Shown here: positions 22,657 through 57,735 of the stretch, piece by piece
Layout: each line of letters begins with the position of its first letter
Numbering within the stretch: position 1 is the stretch's first letter
Origin: a virus
Direction: 5' to 3' (one strand)
Virus record (IMG/VR): IMGVR_UViG_3300010371_000007
Span: 1-57,735 of that record
DNA length: 57,735 nt
Translations under genes and position numbers: made by a program
The notes under the pieces: model-generated
What the model was told of the DNA's origin: nothing
What the model saw: only the letters and a program-made list of their open reading frames with translations
Databases searched by the model: none

Positions 22657-25611
22657 ATGGCCGACTTCACCGACCCGATCACGCAGGCACTCCAGCAGCG
22701 CCTTGCGTCCGGCCCGACGATCTCGGACAACGGCACGCCCCGAGGCGACGCGCAGCTCCAGCAGAACCTCGCCGATGTCACTGCCTCGGCGTCGAATGGC
22801 GCGGTGGGTGGTGCGATGGGCGCCATGGGTGGCGCCGCGGCACAGGCGCCGGAAGCGACGTTCTACGCGTACAACCCGCACACGGACACCCTGCTCGTCA
22901 ACGGCGAGGCCGTCCCCCACGATTTCCAAGCGTGGTCGCATGTCGCGTCGGTGAGTCCAGACCAGCTGCGGCCGATGTCGGTCAGCGCCGTGTCCGAGGA
23001 TGGCTACATCCCACTGACGCAAGGGCGCTTGCAGGAGTTTCTGCAGCAGACGGACCAGAACGCGCAGTCGCATTTCACCGGCGACACGCTGAGCCATCTC
23101 TGGACGGGCACCGTGCGCATGGCGGGCGGCCTCGCACGTGAGCTTCCTCGTGTACTGGCGGGTACACCCGATGGGCGCATGGCGGCGTTCGCAGGTGACG
23201 CGCTGGCTAGCGGGTTGGGTGTAGACCCGAGCAAGTACGGCGGCTTGGCTGCCGCTGCGCAGGACGTGGGCCGGAACATTTCCGACACGAATGCCGCCTA
23301 TGCCCAACAGTGGGATGCCGACCGCCGCGCGGGCCAGACGCTGGCCGAGCAGGCGTACAGCGACTCGACGTTCAGCGCGCACCCACTGCGCGCCACAGGC
23401 AATCTGATATCGAACCAGCTGGCGGAGAGCATCCCCGCGATCGGCGCGTTCGCGTTCAACCCTGCGGCCGGCGCGCTCGCGATCGGTGGGCAGGGCGCAC
23501 AGATGAACGCCGAGAACGCGGGTCAGCGCTTCGACGCGTGGCGACAGGCGCACCCCGAGCAGTTCTCGGCGACCAACCCTGTCTATGCGCAGCTGCGTGC
23601 GCAAGGTCTGAGTGACGAGCAGACCGTCGCCGCGATGCGCCAGCAGTCGATGGACGTCGCCGGTGATGTCGGCGGTGCCCTGTCGCTGGCCACGGCGCCG
23701 CTGGCAGGACGCATCCCGCTGGCCGCGATCGGCCGTGCGTCTGCGCTGGCGCCCGCCATGGGCGGATCGGGCATCGGGTCGTTCATCGGCCGACGGCTCG
23801 CCATGAGCGGACTGACGGCAGCCGAGGGTGCCGGTATCGGCGCGGTGTCGAACATTCCGGGTCAGGTGGCAGCGGACGCCACCAGCGGTCGCGGTGTCCA
23901 AGGCGTGGGAGACTACACGCACGGCCTCGGTGAGATGGCGCTGCTCGGTGGCCTCATGGGCAGCGTGACGCGCGCGCCGGTGCGCAACGCCGCCGCTGCA
24001 TCGGATATCGCCGCGGCCACGGGTGCGATCCCCGGCAAGTCCCCGGTGAGTGACGCCAACCCGGCGCCCACCGGCATGCCGCAGATGCCGCTCCCCGACG
24101 TGCAAGGCCCGGCGCCCGCTGGCGCACCGCCCGTCCCCGGCTCCCCCGCGCGGCCGATGCCGCAGCCGGGCGAGATGGGCGATCTGCTCGGTGGGCAGCC
24201 GCGCCCAGCACCACAGCCCTCCGCTCCGGAGCCCGGCGCGGCGACACCGCCGGCGTTCAACCCGAACCAGACCGAACTCCCCGGGGTGCCGCCGGTCGGT
24301 CCGCAGCTGCCGCAGCGCGCCGGGCCGTCCCTGATCCAGCAGCGCGCAGCTGAACAGGCTGCCGCGCAGAACGCTCCGGCGCCCGCCGAGCCAGCCGGCG
24401 CGCTCCCCGCGCCCGGCATCACGCCGGCGCAAACGGAAGCCGCGGCCAGCGCGCACCAGTCGCTCCAGATGGTCCAGAACCTGCTGGACTCCGGGCAGTT
24501 CAACAAGCGCACGAAGACGGGCAAGGCGACGATCGACCAGCTGACGGCCGAACGCGACCGGCTGCAGGCCGTCGTGGACCAGCACCAGAACGACATACTG
24601 GCCGACCAGATCGCGCAGGCGCGCGCGGCGCGACCACCACAGCCGCCCGCTTCGTTCGTCGAGGACGCGAACGGCCAGCGCGGTCTGCCCGGTGTCGAGC
24701 CCGTGTCCACCCCGGACGGCGCGCCGCCGGCGAACATGGAGCCGGCACCGATCGGTCAGGACCAGCCGATGTCGCCGCAGGAGGCGCAGGCGCGCCTCGC
24801 CATGCAGCGCGCGCGCAACCCGGAGAACCGGCCGCCGCAGGAGGACTTGTTCCCGCGCCAGCTGAAGCAGGGGCTGCAGGCGGTCATCGACAAGAGCCGT
24901 CAGAGCGTGTCCGAGTCGACGCCAGAGCCTGCGGTGGACTTGGCGGCGCAGATGGCCGCGCTCAAGTCCGGCGCGCGGGACGCGGTGTTCGTCGCTGCAG
25001 GCAACGAGGCGCAGGCACCGAAGGTAGCCGGCAAGGCGGTCCGAAAGGTCGTGCGTCCGGAGGGGACGCTGTACACCACGAACGCAGCGAAAGCCAAAGC
25101 CTACAGGGAGGCGCCGGCGCTCAATGACGACATTCTCGCCCGCATGCAGGACTTGCCACAGTCGAAAGCTGACGCTGTACAGCGAGGCGACACGACTGTC
25201 ACTCAGGCGCTGGACGCGAATGGCGCCGTGGTCAAAGAGGCACTGGGGAAGGGAAACACGGCTGCGGTCGCGGAAGCGGCACCACCCGGTGGCGCAGTGC
25301 GCCAGTTGCCGGCCGAGGCGGCACAAGCGCGTCGCGCGGAGCTGAACGCTCGATTCGACCGCGGCGAGGCGATGTCGAACGCCGACCTGCGAGCTGCTGT
25401 CACACACGCAAGCGGAGCGCGACACGGGCGCGCCGGGCCAGCAGCCGTTGGAGGGCATGCTGAACGGCACGGCAGGCCCGCGCGCGGCGGCAGAGGCTGG
25501 TCACAAGGGTTTCCTGCATGCCGACATGAACGGCCTCAAGGCCATCAACGACACGGCGGGTCACGCGGCCGGCGACGCGCTGCTGCAGGCGTTCGGCTCG
25601 CTGTACCGTGA
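22657..25611 (+). CDS. Very large ejection protein, N-terminal section
   Basis: 984 residues as read. Residues 1-450 contain Gly/Ala-rich hydrophobic segments ('AIGAFAFNPAAGALAIGGQG', 'SGIGSFIGRRLAMSGLTAAE') that could insert into a membrane. Residues 460-620 are a Pro-rich linker, followed by helices up to 'AMSNADL'. After about 25390 the frame looks non-coding (His/Gly/Arg-rich) and the +1 frame continues with the GGDEF-containing open frame. The real product may thus be one protein of about 2,600 residues. Start nine bases after the SLT gene, good RBS. Confidence 0.75.
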   Translation: MADFTDPITQALQQRLASGPTISDNGTPRGDAQLQQNLADVTASASNGAVGGAMGAMGGAAAQAPEATFYAYNPHTDTLLVNGEAVPHDFQAWSHVASVSPDQLRPMSVSAVSEDGYIPLTQGRLQEFLQQTDQNAQSHFTGDTLSHLWTGTVRMAGGLARELPRVLAGTPDGRMAAFAGDALASGLGVDPSKYGGLAAAAQDVGRNISDTNAAYAQQWDADRRAGQTLAEQAYSDSTFSAHPLRATGNLISNQLAESIPAIGAFAFNPAAGALAIGGQGAQMNAENAGQRFDAWRQAHPEQFSATNPVYAQLRAQGLSDEQTVAAMRQQSMDVAGDVGGALSLATAPLAGRIPLAAIGRASALAPAMGGSGIGSFIGRRLAMSGLTAAEGAGIGAVSNIPGQVAADATSGRGVQGVGDYTHGLGEMALLGGLMGSVTRAPVRNAAAASDIAAATGAIPGKSPVSDANPAPTGMPQMPLPDVQGPAPAGAPPVPGSPARPMPQPGEMGDLLGGQPRPAPQPSAPEPGAATPPAFNPNQTELPGVPPVGPQLPQRAGPSLIQQRAAEQAAAQNAPAPAEPAGALPAPGITPAQTEAAASAHQSLQMVQNLLDSGQFNKRTKTGKATIDQLTAERDRLQAVVDQHQNDILADQIAQARAARPPQPPASFVEDANGQRGLPGVEPVSTPDGAPPANMEPAPIGQDQPMSPQEAQARLAMQRARNPENRPPQEDLFPRQLKQGLQAVIDKSRQSVSESTPEPAVDLAAQMAALKSGARDAVFVAAGNEAQAPKVAGKAVRKVVRPEGTLYTTNAAKAKAYREAPALNDDILARMQDLPQSKADAVQRGDTTVTQALDANGAVVKEALGKGNTAAVAEAAPPGGAVRQLPAEAAQARRAELNARFDRGEAMSNADLRAAVTHASGARHGRAGPAAVGGHAERHGRPARGGRGWSQGFPACRHERPQGHQRHGGSRGRRRAAAGVRLAVP

Positions 25612-28600
25612 CGTGGCGCGCCGGCACGGTGGCACGCCGTGGCTCGCCGGCGGCGACGAGTTCGTCTCGTCGTACCCGACGCGCGCGGCTGCGCAGAAGG
25701 CGCACGCAGAGCTGCAGGCGCTGGCGAAAAACCACGTCGTCGATTTCCAAGCCAACGACGGCACCACTCACCGAATCGAAGGCGTCGGGTTTGCCGGCGG
25801 GGTAGGGAAAAATGTCCGAGAAGCCGATGCAGCCTCTGAAGCCGCCAAGCGTGCCCACTACGCCAGCTCCGGCACCGAACGACGCGTCGGGTCAGCCCCC
25901 GGCCGTCGTGCACAAGAACCTCACCCTGCAACAGATCGCCGAGCTGATGAAGGCGCAGGGCGTGCAGCCGGGAAGCGTGCGCGTGTTCCCGAGCCCGCGC
26001 CGCGTGAAGTAAAGCCCACCCGCGCGGAACAGCTGAAGGCCAAGACGGCGGCGAAGCGTGAGGCCAAGGCCGACGCTTCGCGCGTCGAGTCTGTCATCGG
26101 TAAAAAAAAAGTCACGCCCGAGGAGCTAAGCGCCCGGACCCGCGCAAGCGACGCTGACGTCGCCGCGGCGACCAAGACGCTGCAGGAGGACGTGGCCGCG
26201 AACCACCCGCAGCACGTCGACGCGTTCGCCGCACAGGCGCATGAGGGCGCCGGGCGCCAGCCCGAGTCCCCGCTGCTGTCGGTGCCGCTGACCGAGCGCG
26301 AGCTGGGCACCGTGGGCGAGCGCGTGCAGGCGACGGCACAGGCGGAGCACGCGCAGGTCAAGGACGGCTCGTGGTCGCCGGCCAAGTCGGTGGTCGCGCG
26401 CGTGCTCGACGCCGCCGGCATGACGCTGGAGGGGTCGAAGCTCAAGGCCGCGATCCAGTCGTTCGCCGAGGCCACGCCGAAGCAGCTGAAGGCGTTCATG
26501 GAGATGGTCGCGCCGCGGCTCGCCGACTCGACGCTTGCCAAGGGCATTGCGCGCGGGATGGACAACGTGCGTGCGGCAGCCAAGGACACGAACAGCGACA
26601 TCCGCGAGATGGCGCTCGGCACGCCGAAGGCACCGAAGCCTGACAAGGCGCCCGAGAAAAACGACGCCTTCAGCGGCGGCCGCGTCACCATGTACGGCCA
26701 CGACGTGCCGGCCGCGGCCGGTCGCGCCGTGCGCCACTGGGTGGGTACGTTCGAGAAGACGTCCGGCCAGTTCCTCCCCGACGAGCTGCACGTGATGTCG
26801 CCGGCGGAGGCCAGCGCACGCTACGGGCAGGACTTCGGCAGTGAGGGGTTCTCCGGTGCGGCCAAGAACCCCGAGACGGGCGCCATGGAGCACGTGATCG
26901 CGGTCGACTGGAAGCGCGTCGGGGATGGTCCGGCGGCCGTGGAGGCGCTGGCGCACGAGTTCGCCCACACCGCCATGGACCACGTGTTCGACAAGCTCCC
27001 CAAGGTGGATCAGGACGCCGTGCGCAGTGCGTACAACGACTGGCTCAAGGCGCAGGGGCGCGGCACGCCGACAGAGACGCTGCTGAACCGCCTGCCGCCA
27101 GCGCTGGCGGACCTCGCGCGCGAGGTGGGGTCGAAGCCCGAGCGCGCCTATGCGGAGAGCTGGCACGAGTGGCTGGCCGACCAGACGGCGAAGTGGATGC
27201 TCACCGATGCCCGGCCGCGCACGGCGGTGGAGCGGTTTTTCGGCCGTCTGGCCGACGCATTCCAGAAGCTCTACGCCAGCGTGACCGGCCGCGGTCGCCC
27301 CACCGACGCCGTGGCGGCGATGATGGACAACCTCGTCGAGCGGTCGCAGAACCTGCGACAGCAGGATGCCACGGTGCGCGCCAACGAGATGACTTATGGC
27401 CGTGAGGCGGCCACGCCGCCCCCGGCGCCCGAGCTGGCGCGCCAGAAGATCGACGTGCGTGCGGTGCAGGCGCGGGTCGACCGCACGCTGCAGGGCGCCA
27501 AGGCGCTCGGCGACGACGTGGGCAAGATGCTCGGGGGCGACACCCATGCCGTGCTCGACCGCCTCAACCGTTCGTGGTCGCACCTCGCGGAGGGGAAGGC
27601 CGGCGACCTCATGCGGAACATCTTCCATGGTGTCATGTCCATGCGCGACATCGTGGACCGATACCGCAAGCGGGGGGAGTTCGGCGAGGGGCTGGTCGAC
27701 TGGGACAACGCCATGCGCGCCGCCGAGAAGCACTCGCGCGAGGTGCAGCAGTCGGCGAACATCGCCAGCGAGCAGGCGCACCGCCTGAGCGCCCCGGTGC
27801 GCACCGCCCTGAACACGCTGATGTACAAGACCACGACGTGGGGTATCCACCCGGACGAGGCGTTCGGCACGGGCCGCAACGCGCACCTCGCCGACGCCGA
27901 CAAGACCGTCGAGGGGAACAACCGAGCGCGCTACAACGAGGTGCGCCAGTTGTGGGACCAGATGCGCAGTATCCCCGGCGACCCGCAGCGGATCTTCAAG
28001 CAGCTGGCTGGCGCGCTGCGCACGATCCAGCACGAGACGTTCACCGCGCGCCACGCGAACATCGATCGCCTCCAGCTGTCCGAAGCGGCGAAGGCGGAGA
28101 TGCACGCCCTGCTCGACGCGCAGGAAGCCCGGATGGTCAAGGGTCCGTATTTCCCGCTGACGCGACAGGGCAACTACATCACCTCGGTAACGATGCCGCA
28201 GACCCGCGTGGGCGAGTACCCGACCAAGGCGGAAGCGAAGCGCATCGCGGACCAGCAGAAGTCGATCAACCCGCACGCGGACGTGACGGTCTCAAAGACA
28301 CCGGACGACACGTGGGATGTGCATGTGGGCGAGAAGGCGGTTTACTTCCACCCCACCCTGCGCGACGCCAAGGAAGCCCAAGCGGGCATCTTGCGTGAGG
28401 TGAAGGAAGCGTGGGCGCACATGGGCGTCGACTACGACATGGCGCAGACCGAGCTGGGGCGCTCGATGGTCAAGGGTCCGTTCCACACGCAGGACTTCTA
28501 TCGCAAGATGGAGGTTCCGAACTTCAACAAGTTCACCCACGAGCTGAACGACCTGTACGCCAAGGGCCAGATCGACCCCGAGGTGTATAAGACATTCAGC

Positions 28601-30508
28601 GAGATGGTGATCGAGGCGCTGCCTGAGACCAGCACGCGCAAGTCGGGCCTCGCGCGGCAGAACATCCGCGGCGCCGATCAGGACATGCTGGGCGGCTACG
28701 TGCGTCACGTCGCCGGCGCCGCGCACGCCTACGGCAAGACGAAGGTCGCGCGCGACATCAACGACGCGTGGGCGCTGATGCACAAGCATGCAGATAGCGA
28801 GCCCGAGCTGAACACCGTCATGAACAGCCTGCGCAACCGGCAGGAAGTGCTGGCGAAGCGCATGGCGCGCAACTGGGAGAACACCACGGCGAACACGCTA
28901 CAGGACATGTCCAGCATGATGTCGCTCGGCATGTCACCGGCGTTCATGGTGCAGCAGGCGCTGCAGCCGATCGTGGTCACGCTGCCGGTACTCGCTGCGC
29001 GCAACATGGAGCGGGGCGGCAAGGCGGTCGGCTACGGCCACGCCATGCAGTACCTGAAGGACGCCTACCAAGGCGCCGTGCCGTTCTTCACCAAGCGCGG
29101 CGGTGAGCAGTTCATGGCCGAAGCGCGCCGCATGCTCGGCACCTACGCGGGCGAGGGGAAGACGCTGCAGGAGTCGGCCAACGACATGATCTCCACGTTC
29201 GGCAAGAACGCCAACGAGCGCGAGATGCTGGAGTACATGCACGCCCGCGGCACGCTCGACTTCGCGTTCCTGAACGCCGTCGCCGATGCTGCGTCGTCCT
29301 CGAAGTTTGGTGATAAGACAAAGGCCGCGCTGCGTATCGCGATGGCGCTCCCCCAGCAGATCGAGGCAATGAACCGCATGGTCTCCGGGCTCGCCGCGTA
29401 CCGCCTCGCGCGTGACCTGCGCGGATTCGACCACGCGCAGGCGATGCACGAGGCGGACACGGTGGTCTCGCAGACGCACGGCGACTACAGCCGCTACAAC
29501 CGCCCCAGCGCGTTCAACCGGCCGTGGGTCGGCATGGCGCTGCAGTTCAAGATGTATACCCAGTTCGTCTACTCGCTGCTGGTGCGCAACTTCGCGAACA
29601 TGATGGACCGCAGCCTGACGAAGGACGAGCGCACGCAGGCGGCGCGCACGCTCGGTTACGTGATCGGCAGCCACGCCACGTTCGGCGGCCTGACCGGCAT
29701 CGGTCCCGTCGCCGCTGCGGCGAAGGTGGGGCTGGGCGGCCTGATGTACGCGGCGGCCGGCGCCGGCGTGATCGACCCGAAAAAGCGCGACCAGACGGTC
29801 GGTGACTGGATCGACGCGAACTTCAACCAGTGGGCGGATGACTCGCTCGGCAAGGGCGCCGGCGCGTACCTGTCGAAGATCGCGGCCTACGGCCTGCCCG
29901 CGGCGGCGAACATCAACATCGCCAACAAGATCGGCATCCCCGACCTGACCGACTCGCGCTACATGGGCAAGGCGGACAAGGCCAGCGACACGATCGGCCA
30001 GCAGGTGCTCGCGATGCTCGGCCCGGTCTACGCGAACGCGGTGCGCGTCGCCGATGGCGCGCAGCAGCTCACGAAGGGGAACCTCGGGGCGGCGGGCAAG
30101 CTGATGCTGCCGGCGGCACCGCGCGCCATCCTGAACGCGATCACGGAGCAGCAGGACGGCGTGGCCACGTCGAGCGGCAACGTGATCCGACCGGCGGCGG
30201 ACCTGTCGCCCTACCGGACGTTCCTGCGCGCCATGGGGCTGCAGGACGCCGACACATCGCGCATCTACGACCAGCGCAGCGCGCGGTACGCCGCGAAGGA
30301 CCGGATCACCAGCGAGCGTACCGACCTGTTGCAGGAGTACGCGCAGGCGAAGGGCGATGACCGCCACGACGTCGCGCTGAAGATTGCCGCGTTCAACAAG
30401 GGCCGCGCGCCGGAGTTCCAGATCTCGCCGGCAACGCTGCAGCGCCAGCTCCAGCGTCAGCCGATGTCGAAGACGGACCGCGCCGCAGCACGCGCGATCG
30501 GACAGTAG
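25448..30508 (+). CDS. Giant polyvalent ejection protein with GGDEF domain and HEFAH zincin motif
   Basis: 1,686 residues from a TTG; the frame is open from 25346 and probably continues the 22657 gene by a +1 shift, since no good start exists. Residues about 1-145: a GGDEF-type nucleotide cyclase domain with 'HADMNGLKAINDTAGH', 'AAGDALL', the signature GGDEF (68-72) and a C-terminal 'EADAASEAAKRAHYASSG'. The Arg/Lys usually two or three residues before GGDEF is replaced ('WLAGGDEF'). Residues about 410-610: a zinc metallopeptidase-like segment with HEFAH (503-507) and a downstream acidic helix. The remaining 1,000 residues are helical with Gly/Ala-rich membrane-like segments, typical of large podovirus ejection proteins. 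It ends at a strong terminator. Confidence 0.82.
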   Translation: MEGMLNGTAGPRAAAEAGHKGFLHADMNGLKAINDTAGHAAGDALLQAFGSLYRDVARRHGGTPWLAGGDEFVSSYPTRAAAQKAHAELQALAKNHVVDFQANDGTTHRIEGVGFAGGVGKNVREADAASEAAKRAHYASSGTERRVGSAPGRRAQEPHPATDRRADEGAGRAAGKRARVPEPAPREVKPTRAEQLKAKTAAKREAKADASRVESVIGKKKVTPEELSARTRASDADVAAATKTLQEDVAANHPQHVDAFAAQAHEGAGRQPESPLLSVPLTERELGTVGERVQATAQAEHAQVKDGSWSPAKSVVARVLDAAGMTLEGSKLKAAIQSFAEATPKQLKAFMEMVAPRLADSTLAKGIARGMDNVRAAAKDTNSDIREMALGTPKAPKPDKAPEKNDAFSGGRVTMYGHDVPAAAGRAVRHWVGTFEKTSGQFLPDELHVMSPAEASARYGQDFGSEGFSGAAKNPETGAMEHVIAVDWKRVGDGPAAVEALAHEFAHTAMDHVFDKLPKVDQDAVRSAYNDWLKAQGRGTPTETLLNRLPPALADLAREVGSKPERAYAESWHEWLADQTAKWMLTDARPRTAVERFFGRLADAFQKLYASVTGRGRPTDAVAAMMDNLVERSQNLRQQDATVRANEMTYGREAATPPPAPELARQKIDVRAVQARVDRTLQGAKALGDDVGKMLGGDTHAVLDRLNRSWSHLAEGKAGDLMRNIFHGVMSMRDIVDRYRKRGEFGEGLVDWDNAMRAAEKHSREVQQSANIASEQAHRLSAPVRTALNTLMYKTTTWGIHPDEAFGTGRNAHLADADKTVEGNNRARYNEVRQLWDQMRSIPGDPQRIFKQLAGALRTIQHETFTARHANIDRLQLSEAAKAEMHALLDAQEARMVKGPYFPLTRQGNYITSVTMPQTRVGEYPTKAEAKRIADQQKSINPHADVTVSKTPDDTWDVHVGEKAVYFHPTLRDAKEAQAGILREVKEAWAHMGVDYDMAQTELGRSMVKGPFHTQDFYRKMEVPNFNKFTHELNDLYAKGQIDPEVYKTFSEMVIEALPETSTRKSGLARQNIRGADQDMLGGYVRHVAGAAHAYGKTKVARDINDAWALMHKHADSEPELNTVMNSLRNRQEVLAKRMARNWENTTANTLQDMSSMMSLGMSPAFMVQQALQPIVVTLPVLAARNMERGGKAVGYGHAMQYLKDAYQGAVPFFTKRGGEQFMAEARRMLGTYAGEGKTLQESANDMISTFGKNANEREMLEYMHARGTLDFAFLNAVADAASSSKFGDKTKAALRIAMALPQQIEAMNRMVSGLAAYRLARDLRGFDHAQAMHEADTVVSQTHGDYSRYNRPSAFNRPWVGMALQFKMYTQFVYSLLVRNFANMMDRSLTKDERTQAARTLGYVIGSHATFGGLTGIGPVAAAAKVGLGGLMYAAAGAGVIDPKKRDQTVGDWIDANFNQWADDSLGKGAGAYLSKIAAYGLPAAANINIANKIGIPDLTDSRYMGKADKASDTIGQQVLAMLGPVYANAVRVADGAQQLTKGNLGAAGKLMLPAAPRAILNAITEQQDGVATSSGNVIRPAADLSPYRTFLRAMGLQDADTSRIYDQRSARYAAKDRITSERTDLLQEYAQAKGDDRHDVALKIAAFNKGRAPEFQISPATLQRQLQRQPMSKTDRAAARAIGQ
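25812..26012 (+). CDS. Nested 66-residue protein inside the giant ejection gene
   Basis: 66 residues in a third frame. The ATG follows GGGTAGGGAAAA. The N-terminal half is Pro-rich, the C-terminal half has 'NLTLQQIAELMKAQGVQ', like a small helical or HTH-type unit. Between about 25880 and 26010 this frame has the strong G/C third-position bias of the genome, while the host frame does not and reads as a charged linker. That is good evidence of an overprinted gene, or of two further compensating frame breaks. Function unknown. Confidence 0.5.
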   Translation: MSEKPMQPLKPPSVPTTPAPAPNDASGQPPAVVHKNLTLQQIAELMKAQGVQPGSVRVFPSPRRVK

Positions 30509-39594: not shown

Positions 39595-41478
39595 CTATTT
39601 TGCTTCGCCATACGACTTGCCGATGGAGCCTTCCGCGGCGAGCGGCAGGCCCATGGCAACGAAGGGATGGCTGGTCATGCACCGGATCGCCAGTGCTTCC
39701 GTTGTTTTCACGTCACAGGTATCCGGAACGACGTAGATCGCCTCGTCGTGCACGCTGCCGGCGACCCACACGTGTTTGCGCAGCTGCAGGATGCCATCGC
39801 GCATGATGCCTCGCGCGATGCGCTGACATAGGTTCTCGAAAACAAGTCCTCCGTATACCCACTTCGGCCGCATGCGCCGCGACTTCCCGTCCCACTTGTC
39901 GTACACCCATCCTGTCTTGCCTTCATCACTGGTGTACCGCCGCAGGTTCGGGTACCGCAGCCACATGCCATCGGGCATGGCGATGGCGCCGTTCTCGATC
40001 CGCAGCGACCCGAGCATCCCGTTGCCGCCGGCGGCCATGATCTCCAGCGCCTGCTCGCACGCCCGCCAGAACGCCACGATCTGCGGGTTCTTCCGGCGGT
40101 ATGCCTGCACGACGCGCAGCCCGAACTCCTCACTCTCGTCGGCCAGCACCAACCCTTCCCGACGCGCGTTCACCTGCAGCATGCGGGCGAACTTCGGACC
40201 GCCCACGCCGTACTGCGCTGACAGGCACGCGACCTTGCCGACGAACCGCTCCATGGGGTGCTGTGCCTTGACGACCGCGTAGCCGTAGATGTCGGCGGCC
40301 ATCGCGCAATACAGGTCCTGCCCGTTGCGCAGCATGTCGAGTGCGTCGACCTGCCCGGACAGCCAGAGCGCCACGCGCATCTCGATCTGCGACAGGTCGA
40401 CCACGCCGAGCAGGTGGCCCGGTGGCGGCTTGATCGCGTCGCGGAGCGGCGACCGTCCACCCTTCGGCGCGCGTGGCAGGTTTTGCAGGTTGATCTGCTG
40501 GCCGAGCGCCGCCTGCCAGCGGTCCGTGGGGAGCGCCGCAGCGTAGCCGAGGGGGTAAGGCATCGTACCGCGCCGGCCGATCGCGGCGAACGCGCCGAGC
40601 CGGGTCTCGACGATCGACGTCTTGGCGCTCAGCCGTGCGTCGATGACCGCGGACACACGGGGGTCGGGATGCTCGGCGAGGTCGAGGAACGCGACGTCCG
40701 ACTTTGCGAACGCCCACAGCTCCTTCGGCGAGCCGTCTGCGTTCTTCTGCTTCGGGCTCTCCTTGGTCGGCGGGTCGACGCCGAGCGAGATCAGCATGTC
40801 GGCGACCACCTGATCGCTGCGCAACGCTTCGATGGTCACGCCGAGGTTCGCCAGCGCCGTGTCGCGCTGCTGGATGTGATCGCGCAGCGCCTGCTCGGCG
40901 AGCGGCACGTCCACGCGCAACGTGGGTCGCGCGAAGATCTGCGTGGTCCAGTCGATCGCCTGCAGCTCTTCCACGGGGAAGTATGGGCGCATGAGCTTGT
41001 ACAGCTGTCGGCACAACCACGTGTCGTGCTTGCAGTACTCGCCGTAGTCCGCGAGCATCGCCGCGGTGAAGTCCTCGCGCCGCAGTCCGTCGGCGATGGC
41101 GACGTAGCCGCCCTTCTCCGGTAGCCCGTAGCGCTCCGCCATGGCCGCGAGTGAGCAGGACCCTTCGAGACCATGCAGCTTGCGCGCCATCGCGAGCGTG
41201 TCGCACATCACGGTGGGATAGATACCGAAGCGCCAGCACAGGATCGCCATGTCGAACAGGGCGTTGTGCGAGCATACGGCTTGGTTCCAGTCGAACCGGC
41301 GCAGCCACTCGCTGATGGCCACCTCGTCGCCCGTGAACCACTCCACAGGACCGTCGTCGACCATGACGGACAGTCCGATGGCCTCGAAACGCGGGTCGCG
41401 GACGTACTCCTCGTACGTCATCTTCGACAGCGTGTAGTCGGCCTTGGAGTAGAACGTCTCCCAGTCCAGCGTGATCAT
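39595..41478 (-). CDS. Family A DNA polymerase with 3'-5' exonuclease
   Basis: 627 residues. Exonuclease motifs: 'LDWETF' (Asp5, Glu7), 'HNALFDMAIL' and 'DYGEYCKHD'. Polymerase motifs: A 'VVDLSQIEMR' (about 358-367), B 'KVACLSAQYGVGG' (Lys ... Tyr-Gly) and C 'GSVHDEAIY' (His-Asp-Glu). The 5'-nuclease domain of PolI is absent, as usual for phage replicases. It should copy phage DNA together with the primase-helicase. Start overlaps the upstream stop (ATGA). Confidence 0.93.
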   Translation of the reverse strand: MITLDWETFYSKADYTLSKMTYEEYVRDPRFEAIGLSVMVDDGPVEWFTGDEVAISEWLRRFDWNQAVCSHNALFDMAILCWRFGIYPTVMCDTLAMARKLHGLEGSCSLAAMAERYGLPEKGGYVAIADGLRREDFTAAMLADYGEYCKHDTWLCRQLYKLMRPYFPVEELQAIDWTTQIFARPTLRVDVPLAEQALRDHIQQRDTALANLGVTIEALRSDQVVADMLISLGVDPPTKESPKQKNADGSPKELWAFAKSDVAFLDLAEHPDPRVSAVIDARLSAKTSIVETRLGAFAAIGRRGTMPYPLGYAAALPTDRWQAALGQQINLQNLPRAPKGGRSPLRDAIKPPPGHLLGVVDLSQIEMRVALWLSGQVDALDMLRNGQDLYCAMAADIYGYAVVKAQHPMERFVGKVACLSAQYGVGGPKFARMLQVNARREGLVLADESEEFGLRVVQAYRRKNPQIVAFWRACEQALEIMAAGGNGMLGSLRIENGAIAMPDGMWLRYPNLRRYTSDEGKTGWVYDKWDGKSRRMRPKWVYGGLVFENLCQRIARGIMRDGILQLRKHVWVAGSVHDEAIYVVPDTCDVKTTEALAIRCMTSHPFVAMGLPLAAEGSIGKSYGEAK

Positions 41479-45538: not shown

Positions 45539-46411
45539 TCACAACCCCATCGACGCCATGCGGTCCACGATCGACTGCGCCGTCTGCCGTGCCTCCGCCG
45601 CGACCATGATGCTGCCGCGCAGGTCGTCGACGTCGTACCGGCACAGCTGGCCATCCAGCGCGCTGTGCAGTGCCTTCAGCTCCGGCGAGTCGAACACGTT
45701 GAGGCTGGCCATGAGTGCCACCGTCTCACGCAGGTTCGACACCAGCGTGTAGGTGAACTGCTTGTTCTTGCCATCGGCCGTCGGGGTCAGTCGCTCCAGC
45801 ATGCGCTCGACGTTCTCGCGCAGGCGGGTGAACGCCGACGCCTGTGCGTCCTCGAACTGCGACTTCACCTGCTGCGCGTACTGCTCGTTCAATGCCCTCA
45901 CCTGCTCGGGCGACAGACCGGTGCGCACGTCGTCGTAGCCGGCGGGGAGTGGCGACAGCGCGGTCGCCATGGAGAACTTCGCACGCACCTGCTCGGCGCT
46001 GGGATAGTCGTTCACGTCAGCCATGTCGCCGAGCGCGGCGATCGACTTCGCCATGAGTGTGGGGTAGTCCGCGACGAACGCGTCAGCCGCTGCGGAGAAC
46101 TCACGCTCCACGCTGCCCAGCTCGCCGAGCAGGGTGAACAGGGTGAGGTTCGACACGAGACGATTACCTGCGGCGTCCCACGGCAAGGTGTGCTCCTCGA
46201 CCAGATCGCGGGCCTGCCGCGCGAGCCGGGCGATGTTTTTGAGCTGCGTGTCCGCCTCGGCCATGAGGTACTTGTTGACGCGGCTGGCGTTCACCGACGC
46301 CGACTTCTCCGTGTTGAGTTCGGCGGTAACGGTCTTGTCCAGCTTGCGCGCCGCCCACTGCGACACGGTGAGGTAGATCAGCTGGCTGGAGCTATGGATA
46401 TCGTTGTGCAT
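45539..46411 (-). CDS. DUF3150-like protein of the MoxR/VWA cluster
   Basis: 290 residues, helical. 'QLIYLTVSQWAARKLDKTV' at the start and 'LMAEADTQLKNIARLARQAR' fit the DUF3150 family found beside MoxR ATPase and VWA genes in phages and prophages. A 'GYDDVRTGLSPEQVRALNEQ' segment is central. Palindrome D lies 17 bases upstream of the ATG, so this gene begins a regulated unit. Molecular role is unknown. Confidence 0.7.
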   Translation of the reverse strand: MHNDIHSSSQLIYLTVSQWAARKLDKTVTAELNTEKSASVNASRVNKYLMAEADTQLKNIARLARQARDLVEEHTLPWDAAGNRLVSNLTLFTLLGELGSVEREFSAAADAFVADYPTLMAKSIAALGDMADVNDYPSAEQVRAKFSMATALSPLPAGYDDVRTGLSPEQVRALNEQYAQQVKSQFEDAQASAFTRLRENVERMLERLTPTADGKNKQFTYTLVSNLRETVALMASLNVFDSPELKALHSALDGQLCRYDVDDLRGSIMVAAEARQTAQSIVDRMASMGL

Positions 46412-46428
46412 GAGGGTTCTCCGAATGG

Positions 46429-46445
46429 GTTACCGAGTCGGTAAC
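46429..46445. promoter_or_regulatory. Palindrome site D
   Basis: GTTACCGAGTCGGTAAC, perfect. It starts 17 bases upstream of the DUF3150-like start codon and touches the stop codon of the gene at 46445-46639. No convincing promoter was found next to it. Confidence 0.85.
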
Positions 46446-46639
46446 TAGTAGGGTAGTTCGGTGTAGCGCAGCGTGTACGTGTACCCCGGCTTCTCGCGTT
46501 TTCTAAGCGCGGCGTGTAGATCAACCCTGCGGTCCGCGTAGATACGAACCACGTGCGGCTGCGTTACTGCGGGATGCCAGTACTCGCCGTGGAACACGTA
46601 ACAGATAAGGCGATCAGCAGATTTTGATGTTTCGTCCAT
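46445..46639 (-). CDS. Hypothetical protein (64 residues)
   Basis: Starts inside the end of the VWA gene in another frame, behind GGAGG ten bases upstream. Tyr/His-rich with 'YVFHGEYWHPAVTQPHVVRI' and 'KPGYTYTLRYTELPY'. Its stop codon abuts palindrome D. Not recognised. Confidence 0.55.
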   Translation of the reverse strand: MDETSKSADRLICYVFHGEYWHPAVTQPHVVRIYADRRVDLHAALRKREKPGYTYTLRYTELPY

Positions 46640-47753
46640 AGGGCGCCTGCACCTCCGTCGTCATCGCCCAGATCACCGGGCGTTTCGGTCCCTTCGTGAA
46701 AGCCGTATAGCCATCCGTGAGTACGGCGATGACGTCGCACTTATCATCGACGGCGTTCTTGATGCCACACTCCATGTCGGTGCCACCGCCACCGGGTACG
46801 GGCTTCGACAGCATCTGGCGCAGCTGCTGACCCGACTTGATCGTGTCCACGCGGTGGACCTTCGCATCGGTCCAGTACACGCGGATCTCGCGCGGCTTTG
46901 CGTCCGACAGGATCGCACCCATGTGCGAGCCGAACAGCTGCAGCAACTCGTCGCCGATACTGCCGCTGGTGTCGACCACCACGCCGACCGGGCCGCAGGC
47001 ATACCCGGTGCGACCGGGCATCACCACGCCGCGCGACATCATGTGCCGGTTGAGGCGGCGCCACGTCGTCGTGTCGTGGCCGCGCATGGCGCTGATGACG
47101 GCTTGCCGCAGCCTCGCCCATGGCGAGTGCTTGGGTCGGATGATGCTGCCGATCAGGCGCTCGATACCGGCCGGCACGTGGCCGAGCGCCTTCGCGGTCT
47201 CGAACGCCGACTGCACGTCCTGCGGCTGGATCGCGTTCTGTTTCTGGTTGCCCGCGGCGCCATCGGAGATGTGCGTGTCGTGGCTCTGCTGGGCGCCACC
47301 CTTGCCGCCACCGCCCTTCGGCGGGTTGGACGGCAACGCCTCGTAGATCTCCGCCGGCGTCATGGTGTGTGGGTACGCCGCGTCCCAGCACCAGCCCGCA
47401 CCGATCGTGCCGATGCCGTTCTGTTTGATCAGATCGTTGATGACGTAATCGGCGGCGCGGTTGTACTTGTCCTGTTCGTAGGGCTTGCCGTCCGGGCCGA
47501 TGCCCGACTCGTGGTACATGTCCATCTCGACGAGGTGCGCGAACATGCCGTGCATGACCTCGTGCGTGATGGCGGCGATGCACTCGTCGTCACTGATCGA
47601 CTCGATGAATGCCGGGTTGTAGTACATCGTGTCGAGCGAGACGGCGAGCGTCGGGAACCGATCGGTCGGCTCGATCTTGAACCGCGTGAGCAGCTGACCG
47701 AAGAACGGCTGCGTGAGCATCACCGCGGTGTATGCGTCATCGAAGATAGCCAT
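46614..47753 (-). CDS. Metallopeptidase-VWA protein (DUF2201-like)
   Basis: 379 residues in two domains. The N-terminal zincin-like domain has HEVMH (64-68). A Gly/Lys/Gln-rich linker (about 145-185) leads to a C-terminal von Willebrand A domain with the MIDAS start DTSGS (261-265), a Thr in 'GGGTDMECG' and Asp in 'IAVLTDGY'. In bacteria such proteins pair with MoxR ATPases; the ATPase is 181 bases upstream here. In phages the target of the pair is unknown. A chelatase- or chaperone-like remodelling role is an inference. Confidence 0.82.
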   Translation of the reverse strand: MAIFDDAYTAVMLTQPFFGQLLTRFKIEPTDRFPTLAVSLDTMYYNPAFIESISDDECIAAITHEVMHGMFAHLVEMDMYHESGIGPDGKPYEQDKYNRAADYVINDLIKQNGIGTIGAGWCWDAAYPHTMTPAEIYEALPSNPPKGGGGKGGAQQSHDTHISDGAAGNQKQNAIQPQDVQSAFETAKALGHVPAGIERLIGSIIRPKHSPWARLRQAVISAMRGHDTTTWRRLNRHMMSRGVVMPGRTGYACGPVGVVVDTSGSIGDELLQLFGSHMGAILSDAKPREIRVYWTDAKVHRVDTIKSGQQLRQMLSKPVPGGGGTDMECGIKNAVDDKCDVIAVLTDGYTAFTKGPKRPVIWAMTTEVQAPYGRNIKIC

Positions 47754-47754
47754 G

Positions 47755-47931
47755 TCACTTCACCTCTCGGGTCTTGACGTCAAGCACGCGCTCTTCGTCG
47801 GGGATGCGACCGCGTACCTGCAGATCCATAGCGGTGTTGGAGGCGCCGTCTTTTGAAAATGCCGTAACGTAATAGACGCGCTCCGTCAAGATCGCAACGC
47901 GATAACGCGGAATATGCGTGTCGTGTGTCAT
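47755..47931 (-). CDS. Small protein between VWA and MoxR genes
   Basis: 58 residues (begins MTHDTHIPRYRVA, ends DVKTREVK). Start behind AAGGGG, three bases after the MoxR stop; its TGA lies just before the VWA ATG. Beta-rich with 'ILTERVYYVTAFSKDG'. The tight packing shows it belongs to the MoxR/VWA unit; possibly an adaptor. Family not recognised. Confidence 0.65.
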   Translation of the reverse strand: MTHDTHIPRYRVAILTERVYYVTAFSKDGASNTAMDLQVRGRIPDEERVLDVKTREVK

Positions 47932-47934
47932 GAC

Positions 47935-49038
47935 TTACCCCTTCTTCACGCGCAGGTGGCGCGACAGCTTCTGCACCATCGTCTTGTTGTCGCGCACCCA
48001 CTCCGACAGTCCCTTGGCGCGCGAGAACGACGCGTCGCGATTCAGCAGCGCGGCGATGCCGACGATGGCGAAGTTCGCATCGAACCGGGTGAGGTACTTC
48101 ATCACGGGGTCGCCGTCGGTGTCCTTGGCGCGCATCGCCGTCATCATGAGGCTGGCGTACGCCTCGTCCGGCTTGCTCGGCACGGGCACCTTGTCCGGCG
48201 TGGCGACGATCTCCTCGTACGTGGGCAGCTTCGATGCCATCGTGATGACGCCGTACAGCTCGGCCGCCGCGCCGTCGCCGACGAACCCACGGATCACCGC
48301 CATGCCGGCCGGCTGGTCGATCATCGCGATCAGGCCGTTCGGCCAGCGCGCCGCCACGTTAGACAGCGCCTCGACCGAGCGCGGCGTGCAGTACGGCTTG
48401 TCCGCGACGGACAGGTCGGGCGCACCGAACACAGTGCCCGGCCGGATCTTCGCGAACGCCATCAGCTCCGGCATCACGCCGGCGCCGGCGGCCCACTCCA
48501 GCCAGTCGTCCACTTCGGGCGGCGCGACGTCGATCAGGCACATGCGGTTGATGACGTGCGACAGCAGGTCGTTCGCGCCGGCGTTGTCCTCGGTGCGGTT
48601 GCCGGCGCAGCACAGCATCCAGCCGGGCGGCAGGACGTACTCGCCAATGCGCCGGTCGAGCAGCAGCGGCGCGACTGCCTTCTGCATCTCCGGTGGCGCT
48701 TGCGGGAACTCGTCGAGGAACAGGATGCCGCGGGCATGCTTCGCGACCTGCGAGGCGAACGGCGGCGTGGTGAACCGCGCCTCACCGTCGGTCGGGATCA
48801 GATACCCGCGCACGTCCACCTCGGACATGCTGGCGAGGTGCAGCTCGATCACGCCGACCTCGGTGTGCGCATCGCCGATCGACTGCATCCACGCGCCGAT
48901 CTGCCGGGCGCCTTCGTGCACGAGGTCGGTCTTGCCGCAGCCGGGCTGGCCGCGGAAGTACGGCGTGCGGCCGGAGCCATAGAACGCCATGAGGACCGAG
49001 GGGATATCGGTGGAGCGGATGGACTGCTTCATGTTCAT
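47935..49038 (-). CDS. MoxR-family AAA+ ATPase
   Basis: 367 residues. Walker A 'GQPGCGKT' (30-37), Walker B 'ILFLDE' (105-110), sensor 1 'CCAGNRTED' and a downstream Arg-rich region, in the order of MoxR/CobS-type ATPases. The tail has 'RDNKTMVQKLSRHLRVKKG'. Cobaltochelatase-like ATPases of this kind are known in several phage groups with unknown roles. Promoter, leader hairpin and palindrome E stand directly upstream, so it opens an operon with the VWA and small genes. Confidence 0.85.
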   Translation of the reverse strand: MNMKQSIRSTDIPSVLMAFYGSGRTPYFRGQPGCGKTDLVHEGARQIGAWMQSIGDAHTEVGVIELHLASMSEVDVRGYLIPTDGEARFTTPPFASQVAKHARGILFLDEFPQAPPEMQKAVAPLLLDRRIGEYVLPPGWMLCCAGNRTEDNAGANDLLSHVINRMCLIDVAPPEVDDWLEWAAGAGVMPELMAFAKIRPGTVFGAPDLSVADKPYCTPRSVEALSNVAARWPNGLIAMIDQPAGMAVIRGFVGDGAAAELYGVITMASKLPTYEEIVATPDKVPVPSKPDEAYASLMMTAMRAKDTDGDPVMKYLTRFDANFAIVGIAALLNRDASFSRAKGLSEWVRDNKTMVQKLSRHLRVKKG

Positions 49039-49079: not shown

Positions 49080-49102
49080 CCAGCAGACCGCACGTCTGCT
49101 GG
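49080..49102 (-). other. Leader hairpin of the MoxR operon
   Basis: CCAGCAGAC and GTCTGCTGG pair perfectly (9 bp) with a 5-base loop, between the promoter and palindrome E. In RNA both this stem and the palindrome could fold. No U-tract, so not a plain terminator. Confidence 0.6.
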
Positions 49103-53528: not shown

Positions 53529-55043
53529 TCACAGCAGTGCTGCGATGGTGTCGACCTCGCTCGCGGGGATGTCGTGGCAACCGATCACGAGCGATCCATC
53601 CGTGCGGATCGTGGACAGGGGGTAGTTACCGACCCGGTAACCTTCGGCCGTCAACCGCGTCGCCAACTGGGTCGTCCCTTCCACGTCACCACGAACACGC
53701 TGCAGCAGGCGCCACAAGCGACGCGCCGACTCCGCCGGAACACGCGCACCCCAGCTCGTCTCGACGACATCCCCGACCAACCGCAGCAGCGGCGTGGTGG
53801 TGTGGCCGATGCTCCCCATCCCCGCACGCCATGCGTCGACGGCTGCCGCCTCACGCGCTGCGCGGTTCGCTTCCCACTCGGCGAGTGCCTCTTCCGCAGC
53901 GACGCTGCGTTCTGCCAGTGCAGACAGCTGGACGTTGATGGGGTGTGTCGGCGGGAACGCCGCCATGTCGCGAACAGTCTTCTGGTACATGGCCAACCAC
54001 GACGCCAGCTGCGGCATGTCTACCGTGGCCGTTCCGCGAAGTGCGACCAACCGTTCCTCACAGTCCGCGACGACGGCTGATCGCTCAAGCCGCCGACGCA
54101 GGTCGACCACGCGCGCCGGGACGGGGATACCACAATAGCTCGCGATGTTGATGCTATGGTCGATCCAAGCGCCGCTGCTCGTATCCTTCCGCGTGTCGCG
54201 CTGCGCGCGCTCCGTCGTCTGCCACGCGCGCCGCAGGTTGTGCATGGCGGCCGTGCGGCGTTCTTGTCGGATCTCTGCAGTCACCTGCTGCCGCACGGCC
54301 TCGATCTGATCGACGGACGGTACACCTTGCGGACGCACGAACCGTTTCCCGCACTCCTTCGCGAGCAGCTGCAGCTGACTGACTGCCTGCGCCAGACTGT
54401 CCAACGCATGCTCCCGTGACGACAGGCTGAGCGCAGCATCGGAGGCCATCTCCCAACCGCGCACCGCGCGACCAACCGCGTCGGCACGACGCGCCGCACG
54501 TGACGGCTCGCCGAGCGCCGCTGCTCGCTTCGCCCATGCGTCGACAGGCAGGCCCAGTGCGTTGACCACAGCACGGTGCAATGCTGCCATCCCGCGCTGG
54601 CGCGGCGCCCGCTGGATCATGCGCATGGCATCGTCCAGCCGCTGGTGCGCGGTATCGACCAGTGTCTCCCTTACGAACGACTCGCGCTTTTTCGCCGCGG
54701 CCTGCCGGTACTTCTCGCTGGCGTCCCGCACCAGCCACGCCGCCAGTCGCCTCTCCCAACCGTCACGCTGCAGGTCCATCGCATGCAGACTCTCGCACTG
54801 GACCACGGTCGCGCCACGGGGTATCGCTCGACGCACCCACGACTGGTGTTTGCTCGTCGTGATGCTGAACCGACCCACGTCGACCACGAACAACGTGGGT
54901 GCAACACGAACGGCGATGGTGGTGTTGTAGCTGTACAGTATGCCGCCCGCGAACGACACGTTCCCTCCGGGGTTACGCGCGCTGTCCTGTGTGGCATGTG
55001 CCCACAGGTGGGCAATCTCAGTGGATGGATACACGGTCTTCAT
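53529..55043 (-). CDS. Large unknown early protein (504 residues)
   Basis: ATG behind GAGGAG; an in-frame ATG 15 bases upstream lacks a site. N-terminal beta-rich domain (1-85) with 'NPGGNVSFAGGILYSYNTTI' that recalls DNA-clamp-like or phage 'recombination-accessory' folds, then a long Arg/Ala-rich helical region (90-440) and a small C-terminal domain. The frame crosses palindrome G near its end. Not assigned to a family. Its long helices and basic charge would allow nucleic-acid binding. Confidence 0.65.
   Translation of the reverse strand: MKTVYPSTEIAHLWAHATQDSARNPGGNVSFAGGILYSYNTTIAVRVAPTLFVVDVGRFSITTSKHQSWVRRAIPRGATVVQCESLHAMDLQRDGWERRLAAWLVRDASEKYRQAAAKKRESFVRETLVDTAHQRLDDAMRMIQRAPRQRGMAALHRAVVNALGLPVDAWAKRAAALGEPSRAARRADAVGRAVRGWEMASDAALSLSSREHALDSLAQAVSQLQLLAKECGKRFVRPQGVPSVDQIEAVRQQVTAEIRQERRTAAMHNLRRAWQTTERAQRDTRKDTSSGAWIDHSINIASYCGIPVPARVVDLRRRLERSAVVADCEERLVALRGTATVDMPQLASWLAMYQKTVRDMAAFPPTHPINVQLSALAERSVAAEEALAEWEANRAAREAAAVDAWRAGMGSIGHTTTPLLRLVGDVVETSWGARVPAESARRLWRLLQRVRGDVEGTTQLATRLTAEGYRVGNYPLSTIRTDGSLVIGCHDIPASEVDTIAALL
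53625..53641. promoter_or_regulatory. Palindrome site G
   Basis: GTTACCGACCCGGTAAC, same centre type as sites A and B. It is inside the coding end of the 504-residue gene (reads Tyr-Arg-Val-Gly-Asn-Tyr), 170 bases before the next start codon, so it is the least promoter-like copy. Confidence 0.75.
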
Positions 55044-57018: not shown

Positions 57019-57047
57019 ATTATTACACGAAACAGGTGTCGTGTCAA
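57019..57047 (-). promoter_or_regulatory. Strong sigma70-type leftward promoter
   Basis: Minus strand: -35 TTGACA (57042-57047, consensus), 17-base spacer, -10 AATAAT (57019-57024; TAATAA with 16). Leads into palindrome J and the beta-helix gene. Best candidate for the first host-RNA-polymerase promoter of the early region. Confidence 0.85.
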
Positions 57048-57049
57048 GG

Positions 57050-57612
57050 TGCTGGGTGGCCGTGAAACGGCGAGCGTAGGGCGCGTTTCGATATACTTGG
57101 GTACGGTGGGTGAAAAGAGGGGTGGTCCCCATTTATGGACCCATGAGGGGTTTTGGGCGCAAATCGTGTGCCCCGAAATCCCGCCAAAAGTCGCGCATAG
57201 GTTCAATTTTTTCTCAAACCAAATCCGTTAAACTTATACGATTCTATATAACTCTAGTTACCTAAAAATAGATATATATATAGTGTTTTGTTCGTGTACG
57301 CGTTTGTTCATGCTGTGCAGCTGCTGTACGTCGTGGCGTACGAGCTTTTTAAAGGGGGTGTTTAATTTTACAATTAAAGCTGTCGTGCATGCACGAGGCA
57401 CTTTTATGGCGTTAGAGTCTATAGCGAAAAACACGCTTGAATCGTACAAAGTACTCTGTAGAGTGCCAAACATACATTCTACGATTTTTTATTTTGCGTG
57501 TTTTGTGACGTAAGGTTCTACAGCCGATTTTTTTCAATACTTACATTTCGAGACTTTTATGCTCGTGCGTCACCGCGTGCCGTCGCCATACATGACGTTA
57601 GTGCTGAAACTT
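57050..57612. other. Non-coding, AT-rich control region
   Basis: No convincing gene: open frames here have no ribosome-binding site and unusual codon use. From 57200 the base composition drops well below the rest of the genome, with TATATATATAT (about 57270), a perfect TCGTGCATGCACGA palindrome (about 57381), several T-runs and A-runs and a terminator-like hairpin. This is the likeliest place for a replication origin and additional early promoters, but no defined iterons were found. 57050-57200 is GC-richer and contains nothing I recognise. Confidence 0.5.
57458..57495 (+). terminator. Possible rightward terminator in the AT-rich region
   Basis: GTAGAGTG and CATTCTAC pair (one G-T) over a 9-base loop and are followed by GATTTTTTATTTT. 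It would stop transcription running rightward toward the genome end. Confidence 0.5.
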
Positions 57613-57735
57613 ACAGCCATCTAGTCTTTTGTTTTTGCGTTGTAGAACGCCACAGTCATTTAACTTATCATCACCCGCCTGCCGCTGAGTTACCGACCCG
57701 GTAACTTCGGCGGACTAGCGCGCTCAAACCGCAGG
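57613..57735. repeat. Terminal direct repeat, right copy
   Basis: Identical to 1-123. Contains the second copies of the CTTATCATCA motif (57664-57673) and palindrome A (57689-57705). Confidence 0.95.

Follow-up and report, generated by a model that had tools for sequence, protein, structure and literature searches.

What do an AAA+ ATPase and a VWA protein with a metallopeptidase-like site do together in a phage, and which neighbouring genes belong with them? The question is raised by a group of leftward genes in the IMG/VR virus record IMGVR_UViG_3300010371_000007, analysed here over its whole length (57,735 bp, hereafter the window), a complete phage contig whose direct terminal repeat measures 123 bp and whose GC content is 65.7%. 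The group contains a real, conserved three-part module, composed of a known AAA+/VWA pair and a little-known third member, a protein of the Pfam family DUF3150, for which we infer a common function. We give about even chances to the reading that this trio is a ternary ATP-driven remodelling machine of mobile DNA, in which DUF3150 would act as an adaptor or regulator and the client would take part in replication or host take-over. The open reading frames (ORFs) concerned are arranged as follows.

47935-49038, minus strand: AAA+ ATPase, 367 amino acids (aa); AAA_5, phrog_1297, N4 gp24-like
47755-47931, minus strand: accessory ORF of 58 aa between the ATPase and VWA genes, from the ORF list
46614-47753, minus strand: peptidase-VWA protein, 379 aa; DUF2201_N and VWA, phrog_1314, N4 gp25-like
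46445-46639, minus strand: accessory ORF of 64 aa overlapping the 3' end of the VWA gene, from the ORF list
45539-46411, minus strand: DUF3150 protein, the recurrent third partner, 290 aa; Pfam PF11348

The original prediction had described four leftward genes here, forming an AAA+ plus VWA system with a small intervening protein. Coordinates and Pfam matches over the cut-offs confirm the AAA+, VWA, DUF3150 and small-protein ORFs, while the 64-aa ORF had been missed. The idea of an AAA+/VWA system stands once DUF3150, whose role as recurrent third partner was underrated, is counted in. The small 58-aa protein is rejected as a partner of the machine because it is not conserved: it has no homologue in the two relatives used for comparison (loci L002 and L008), where the gap is 3 bp long or filled with unrelated ORFs. 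The same holds for the 64-aa ORF, for which L002 and L008 gave no significant homologue. A DNA polymerase A gene (39595-41478, minus strand) lies downstream of the cluster on the same strand as the trio. No DNA similarity to the 45-50.5 kb stretch was found among 50,697 phage records.

The two better-known genes are homologues of N4 gp24/gp25, as judged from their sequences. The ATPase matches Pfam AAA_5 above the cut-off (E 8.8e-6) and phrog_1297 over residues 3-357 (E 7.8e-74). No MoxR-specific Pfam model was found for it at E 1, and a motor of the MoxR/NorQ type is our tentative reading. Matches of the VWA protein to DUF2201_N (E 6.9e-24) and DUF2201 (E 1e-18) both exceed their cut-offs, and phrog_1314 is matched over residues 4-378 (E 2.7e-73). 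The ATPase is 69% identical in L002; by tblastn, 764 phage records have a match to the ATPase and 399 a match to the VWA protein, with identity below 60% throughout, and the pair is less than 35% identical to proteins of the named phages listed. PHROG 1314 and numerous phage records (L005 6586-7812, L179 6848-8026 and others) annotate the peptidase-VWA protein as "HNH endonuclease", a label that contrasts with the DUF2201_N and VWA match of the window protein. The DUF3150 protein of Tunturi_3 (L004) bears the same label.

Catalytic residues are retained almost throughout. ATPase motifs comprise Walker A (G33, G35, K36), Walker B (D109), N147, R165 and P219-R220; among 80 nonredundant sequences K36 is kept in 76 (the other four being gaps), D109 in 75, N147 and R165 in 77 each, and R220 in 79. 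The HEVMH motif noticed earlier in the VWA protein is confirmed at residues 64-68. It belongs to a metallopeptidase-like site in the DUF2201_N domain (H64 E65 xx H68 xxxx H73), whose H64, E65 and H68 are present in 93 of the 94 nonredundant VWA sequences (one gap) and H73 in 89. In the same 94 sequences, the metal-ion-dependent adhesion site (MIDAS) of the VWA domain is conserved to a comparable extent (D261, S263, S265 and D347 in 92, T325 in 93). The AlphaFold model of this protein (pLDDT 86.2) shows VWA-fold matches up to Z 12.6 over residues 252-379, and a low-confidence linker at about 140-170, after the peptidase-like domain.

The third protein is assigned to DUF3150 (PF11348) with E 7.4e-8 and 32.4 bits, compared to the curated cut-off of 24.9. 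A comparison with the PDB gave nothing at E 0.001 for its AlphaFold model, which is of high confidence (pLDDT 91.3). The C-terminal helical bundle (172-290) gives VIA-align Z scores up to 10.5, within the chance range for bundles, and the comparison covers this helical part well and the N-terminal part barely; for these two reasons we claim no fold. A search of a viral model library disclosed 8 matches at E 0.001, one of which is named DUF3150. In the literature searched no paper names the family, and no such trio is named in related paper listings.

Association of the three genes was assessed in two sets of viral loci, in which partners were scored within 6 kb and on the same strand. The DUF3150-seeded set comprises 75 loci, scanned by two peptide patterns; the VWA-seeded set comprises the best 80 of 549 VWA matches and is redundant (58 after reduction). 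All three genes are present in 62 DUF3150-seeded loci, whereas 4 have VWA only, 4 have AAA only and 5 have neither, many of these loci ending at contig ends. Among the 80 VWA-seeded loci, 44 have all three genes, 23 have AAA without DUF3150, 6 have DUF3150 without AAA, and 7 have VWA alone, so that DUF3150 is present in 50. The module genes found always share one strand, in three orders: AAA-VWA-DUF3150, DUF3150-AAA-VWA and AAA-DUF3150-VWA. The last of these is carried by the isolated cyanophage MinM2.

Gene neighbourhoods and protein trees extend this picture. Of the 36 nonredundant VWA-seeded loci with long flanks, all 36 have AAA and 21 have DUF3150; BLAST clustering of the neighbours gave DNA polymerase A in 20, and no other family exceeded 8. 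On the VWA tree (90 nonredundant proteins, 81 scored), presence of DUF3150 changes at least 4 times and gene order at least 15 times, the latter count being inflated by six rows labelled DV, which have no AAA in the locus and mostly lie at a contig end. Partial correlations of the distances of the three proteins beyond that of DNA polymerase A are 0.83, 0.75 and 0.67 (23 loci with the polymerase; descriptive only). Conserved co-occurrence, strand and distances look like what a functional unit would leave.

The trio is not confined to viruses. DUF3150 was found on 44 of 72,556 plasmid records, typed as conjugative (16), mobilizable (8) and non-mobilizable (20). Four of the five plasmid neighbourhoods examined contain the trio (L162, L163, L165 and L166), with the ATPase of L163 located about 3.6 kb upstream of the rest; the fifth, L164, has DUF3150 and no matching AAA or VWA. 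This last is a Candidatus Manganitrophus plasmid in which genes for an AAA family ATPase, DUF1257 and DUF2997 stand beside DUF3150, without a VWA partner. Considering plasmid and GTDB loci together (L162-L176), all three genes are present in 14 of 15, the AAA and DUF3150 matches of L176 being split over two frames. In the class of the Cupriavidus seed genome, 1 of 369 genomes matched, namely the seed itself. Taken together with plasmid carriage, this makes the module look like cargo of mobile elements. A possible parallel in the cobS/cobT genes of SXT/IncC elements was set aside; in each of two plasmid searches, the 44 records include none named as such a plasmid group.

The proposal of a remodelling machine starts from the observation that the trio stays together on one strand across changes of order, and that its ATPase, zinc-peptidase-like and MIDAS residues hardly vary. 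In NorQD, the AAA+ pore takes up a finger of the VWA protein, and through ATP the VWA domain is rotated and its linker stretched (PMC13036017). By analogy, the AAA+ protein would form a ring that holds the VWA domain in the way NorQ holds NorD; hydrolysis of ATP would then twist the arm, opening the N-terminal peptidase-like domain or presenting it to a client. Such a motion could open or aim the peptidase because the peptidase-like domain precedes the low-confidence linker. DUF3150 may bring or check the client, as an adaptor or regulator. As the genes adjoin DNA polymerase A and are carried by plasmids too, the client would belong to DNA replication or host take-over and not to the virion. 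N4 gp24/gp25 are reported to be middle transcripts, and middle transcription, proximity of the polymerase and plasmid carriage all lead away from a purely structural role. More tentatively, and at somewhat under even chances, DUF3150 could define an undescribed class of AAA+/vWA ternary machines. Phages and large plasmids would share this class, and DUF3150 would direct its ATP-driven zinc peptidase against a host or replication protein while the DNA of the element is copied.

Several observations weigh against this proposal. DUF3150 is absent from 14 of the 81 scored VWA rows, and a whole-record search of 18 pair-only records, which include two N4-like ones, detected it in none (control L138 positive); DUF3150 is thus not obligatory for the pair. 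Conversely, L043, L004 and L164 have DUF3150 and no matching VWA anywhere in the record (control 4/4). Matches to terminase families were obtained for 5 of 132 scanned neighbour proteins, a count of proteins, not of loci, taken from 282 collected neighbour ORFs (at least 190 aa in the scan), and roseophage RPP1 encodes four virion proteins near its gp24/gp25 homologues, as reported. As for the records themselves, L043 is a 181-kb viral contig. A hidden DUF3150 was sought by profile and HHalign among the large neighbours in Ab09, phage G, phiFa, SCTP-2 and RHph_TM3_14A, and nothing convincing was found.

The terminase and RPP1 observations are also what speaks for the best surviving alternative, in which the motor and peptidase-VWA protein act as a virion-assembly chaperone and processing peptidase that mature a structural protein. 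A virion role has been proposed for the MoxR-vWA-metallopeptidase pairs of jumbo phages, by analogy with an archaeal virus tail (PMC7824862). This alternative is unlikely, at slightly less than one chance in four: DNA polymerase A is the commonest other neighbour, gp24/gp25 belong to the middle transcripts of N4, and the trio occurs on plasmids whose examined stretches name no virion gene. Because of this neighbourhood and this carriage, virion assembly is weakened as a general role, and a virion-only role in particular; it cannot be assumed for the trio.

Slightly less probable still is a conflict system, that is, an anti-host, anti-plasmid or superinfection-exclusion device with DUF3150 as its sensor. 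Its plan of motor, vWA-peptidase and third protein resembles the MoxR-vWA ternary systems (PMC7159879 and PMC12839542), and the mobile-element distribution, with only the Cupriavidus seed matching in its class, would fit. On the other hand, the aligned sequences all combine VWA with one and the same fused peptidase domain, with no variable effector, and none of six proteins has a PADLOC match at E 0.1, so that a known defence system is rejected; an NCBIfam search gave no relevant match. Insertion of a cofactor or metal into a phage or host enzyme is an established role for AAA+/VWA pairs, as with NorQD for nitric oxide reductase (PMC13036017), and is quite improbable here, as the neighbour families shown include no recurrent metalloenzyme and the additional intact HExxH-type site points to cutting.

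We return to the remodelling machine as the preferred reading, for which the recurrent third gene defines a specific complex that could be purified and would allow gp24/gp25-like genes to be tested more cleanly by genetics. No tested function for such genes in phages was found in the literature searched, nor were knock-down data on N4 gp24/gp25 found in a published screen paper searched by term. Such a test would also assign a function to DUF3150, a family without mention in the literature searched.

The palindromes and promoter to which control of the cluster had been attributed were addressed as well. The relevant sites are as follows.

49139-49111, minus strand: promoter-like TTGACT-N17-TAATAT, 9/12 consensus
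49080-49102, minus strand: 5'-leader hairpin with loop GTGCG; the stem differs and the CGTGCG loop core is kept in L002/L008
49059-49075, no strand assigned: palindrome GTTACCG-ACT-CGGTAAC, 20 nt before the ATPase start; homologous site in L002/L008 with a 2-bp spacer
46429-46445, no strand assigned: palindrome GTTACCG-AGT-CGGTAAC, 17 nt before the DUF3150 start; homologous site in L002/L008 with a 2-bp spacer
77, 1071, 42060, 46429, 49059, 52226, 53625, 55114, 56060, 56966 and 57689: palindrome copies in the window

The ATPase leader thus has the order promoter-like site, hairpin, palindrome and ribosome-site motif, and this order recurs in L002 and L008. The promoter was said to be one of the two best. 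Between 42 and 53 kb, where chance alone would give 1.2 consensus matches, it is the sole one, and its credibility comes only from L002 and L008, both of which have a TTGACA promoter in the corresponding position. The palindromes are real, occur across the genome and do not flank the cluster as described, one being upstream of the ATPase gene and the other internal, between the VWA and DUF3150 genes.

All 11 exact copies of GTTACCG-N3-CGGTAAC in the window have a 3-bp spacer. Allowing up to 2 mismatches, 13 sites are found compared to 0.13 expected, and none of 100 shuffles reached as many. Eight of the nine palindromes outside the terminal repeats lie 11-84 nt 5' of a minus-strand start codon with a ribosome-site motif; the copy at 53625 sits within an ORF. 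The spacer is 2 bp in all exact sites of G001 (source of L002, 6/6) and G389 (source of L008, 8/8), and 4 bp in all 13 of G386, while G387 is mixed (3 bp in 18 sites, 2 bp in 6), which indicates some spacer tolerance. G001 has an additional 1-mismatch copy with a 3-bp spacer. Fixed arms with a spacer length that changes between related phages favour a putative dimeric DNA-binding factor. Control by the palindromes is plausible from position and conservation. Since G386 and G387 gave no DUF3150 match (in a search without positive control), the palindrome seems to characterise a regulon rather than the trio.

Two other stretches of the window deserve mention. An ORF of 1,686 aa (25448-30508, plus strand) has a GGDEF domain near the N terminus, with the GGDEF motif intact, and an LPD39 polyvalent-protein domain, and is a possible diguanylate cyclase within a phage polyvalent protein. 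The segment at about 57020-57650, adjoining the terminal repeat, looks AT-rich and without long ORFs, and is possibly an early promoter or origin region.

Among known systems, NorQD (PMC13036017) and RavA-ViaA share with the window an AAA+ ring and a VWA partner. Both are cellular, unlike the phage and plasmid trio. Neither is known to have a peptidase domain or DUF3150. The MoxR-vWA ternary conflict systems (VMAP, iSTAND and FtsH classes; PMC7159879) resemble the trio in combining a motor, a vWA protein and a third component. The trio differs in having DUF3150 as that component, in phage and plasmid carriage and in a constant peptidase domain; no VMAP, iSTAND or FtsH family matches the third protein in Pfam at E 1, and PADLOC gave no match at E 0.1. 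The MoxR-vWA-peptidase pair of group 2.2 jumbo phages consists of the same two protein types, with the peptidase N-terminal to vWA, and that paper (PMC7824862), which proposes the virion role, has 0 occurrences of DUF3150. In N4 gp24/gp25 (Schitoviridae; phrog_1297 and phrog_1314), as in the window, an AAA+ gene is followed by a metallopeptidase-VWA gene on one strand near the DNA polymerase (L005). The N4-like records searched (Ab09 and VBP47) have no DUF3150; theirs is a two-gene system, whereas the window carries the third gene. Such pairs had been called unexplained in phages, which holds in that we found no test of their role, but they had already been noticed, both through the proposed virion role and as core genes of N4-like phages (PMC2784036, PMC7650795 and PMC4193335). 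Because the window pair corresponds to these core genes it is not new, and the novelty lies in its link to DUF3150.

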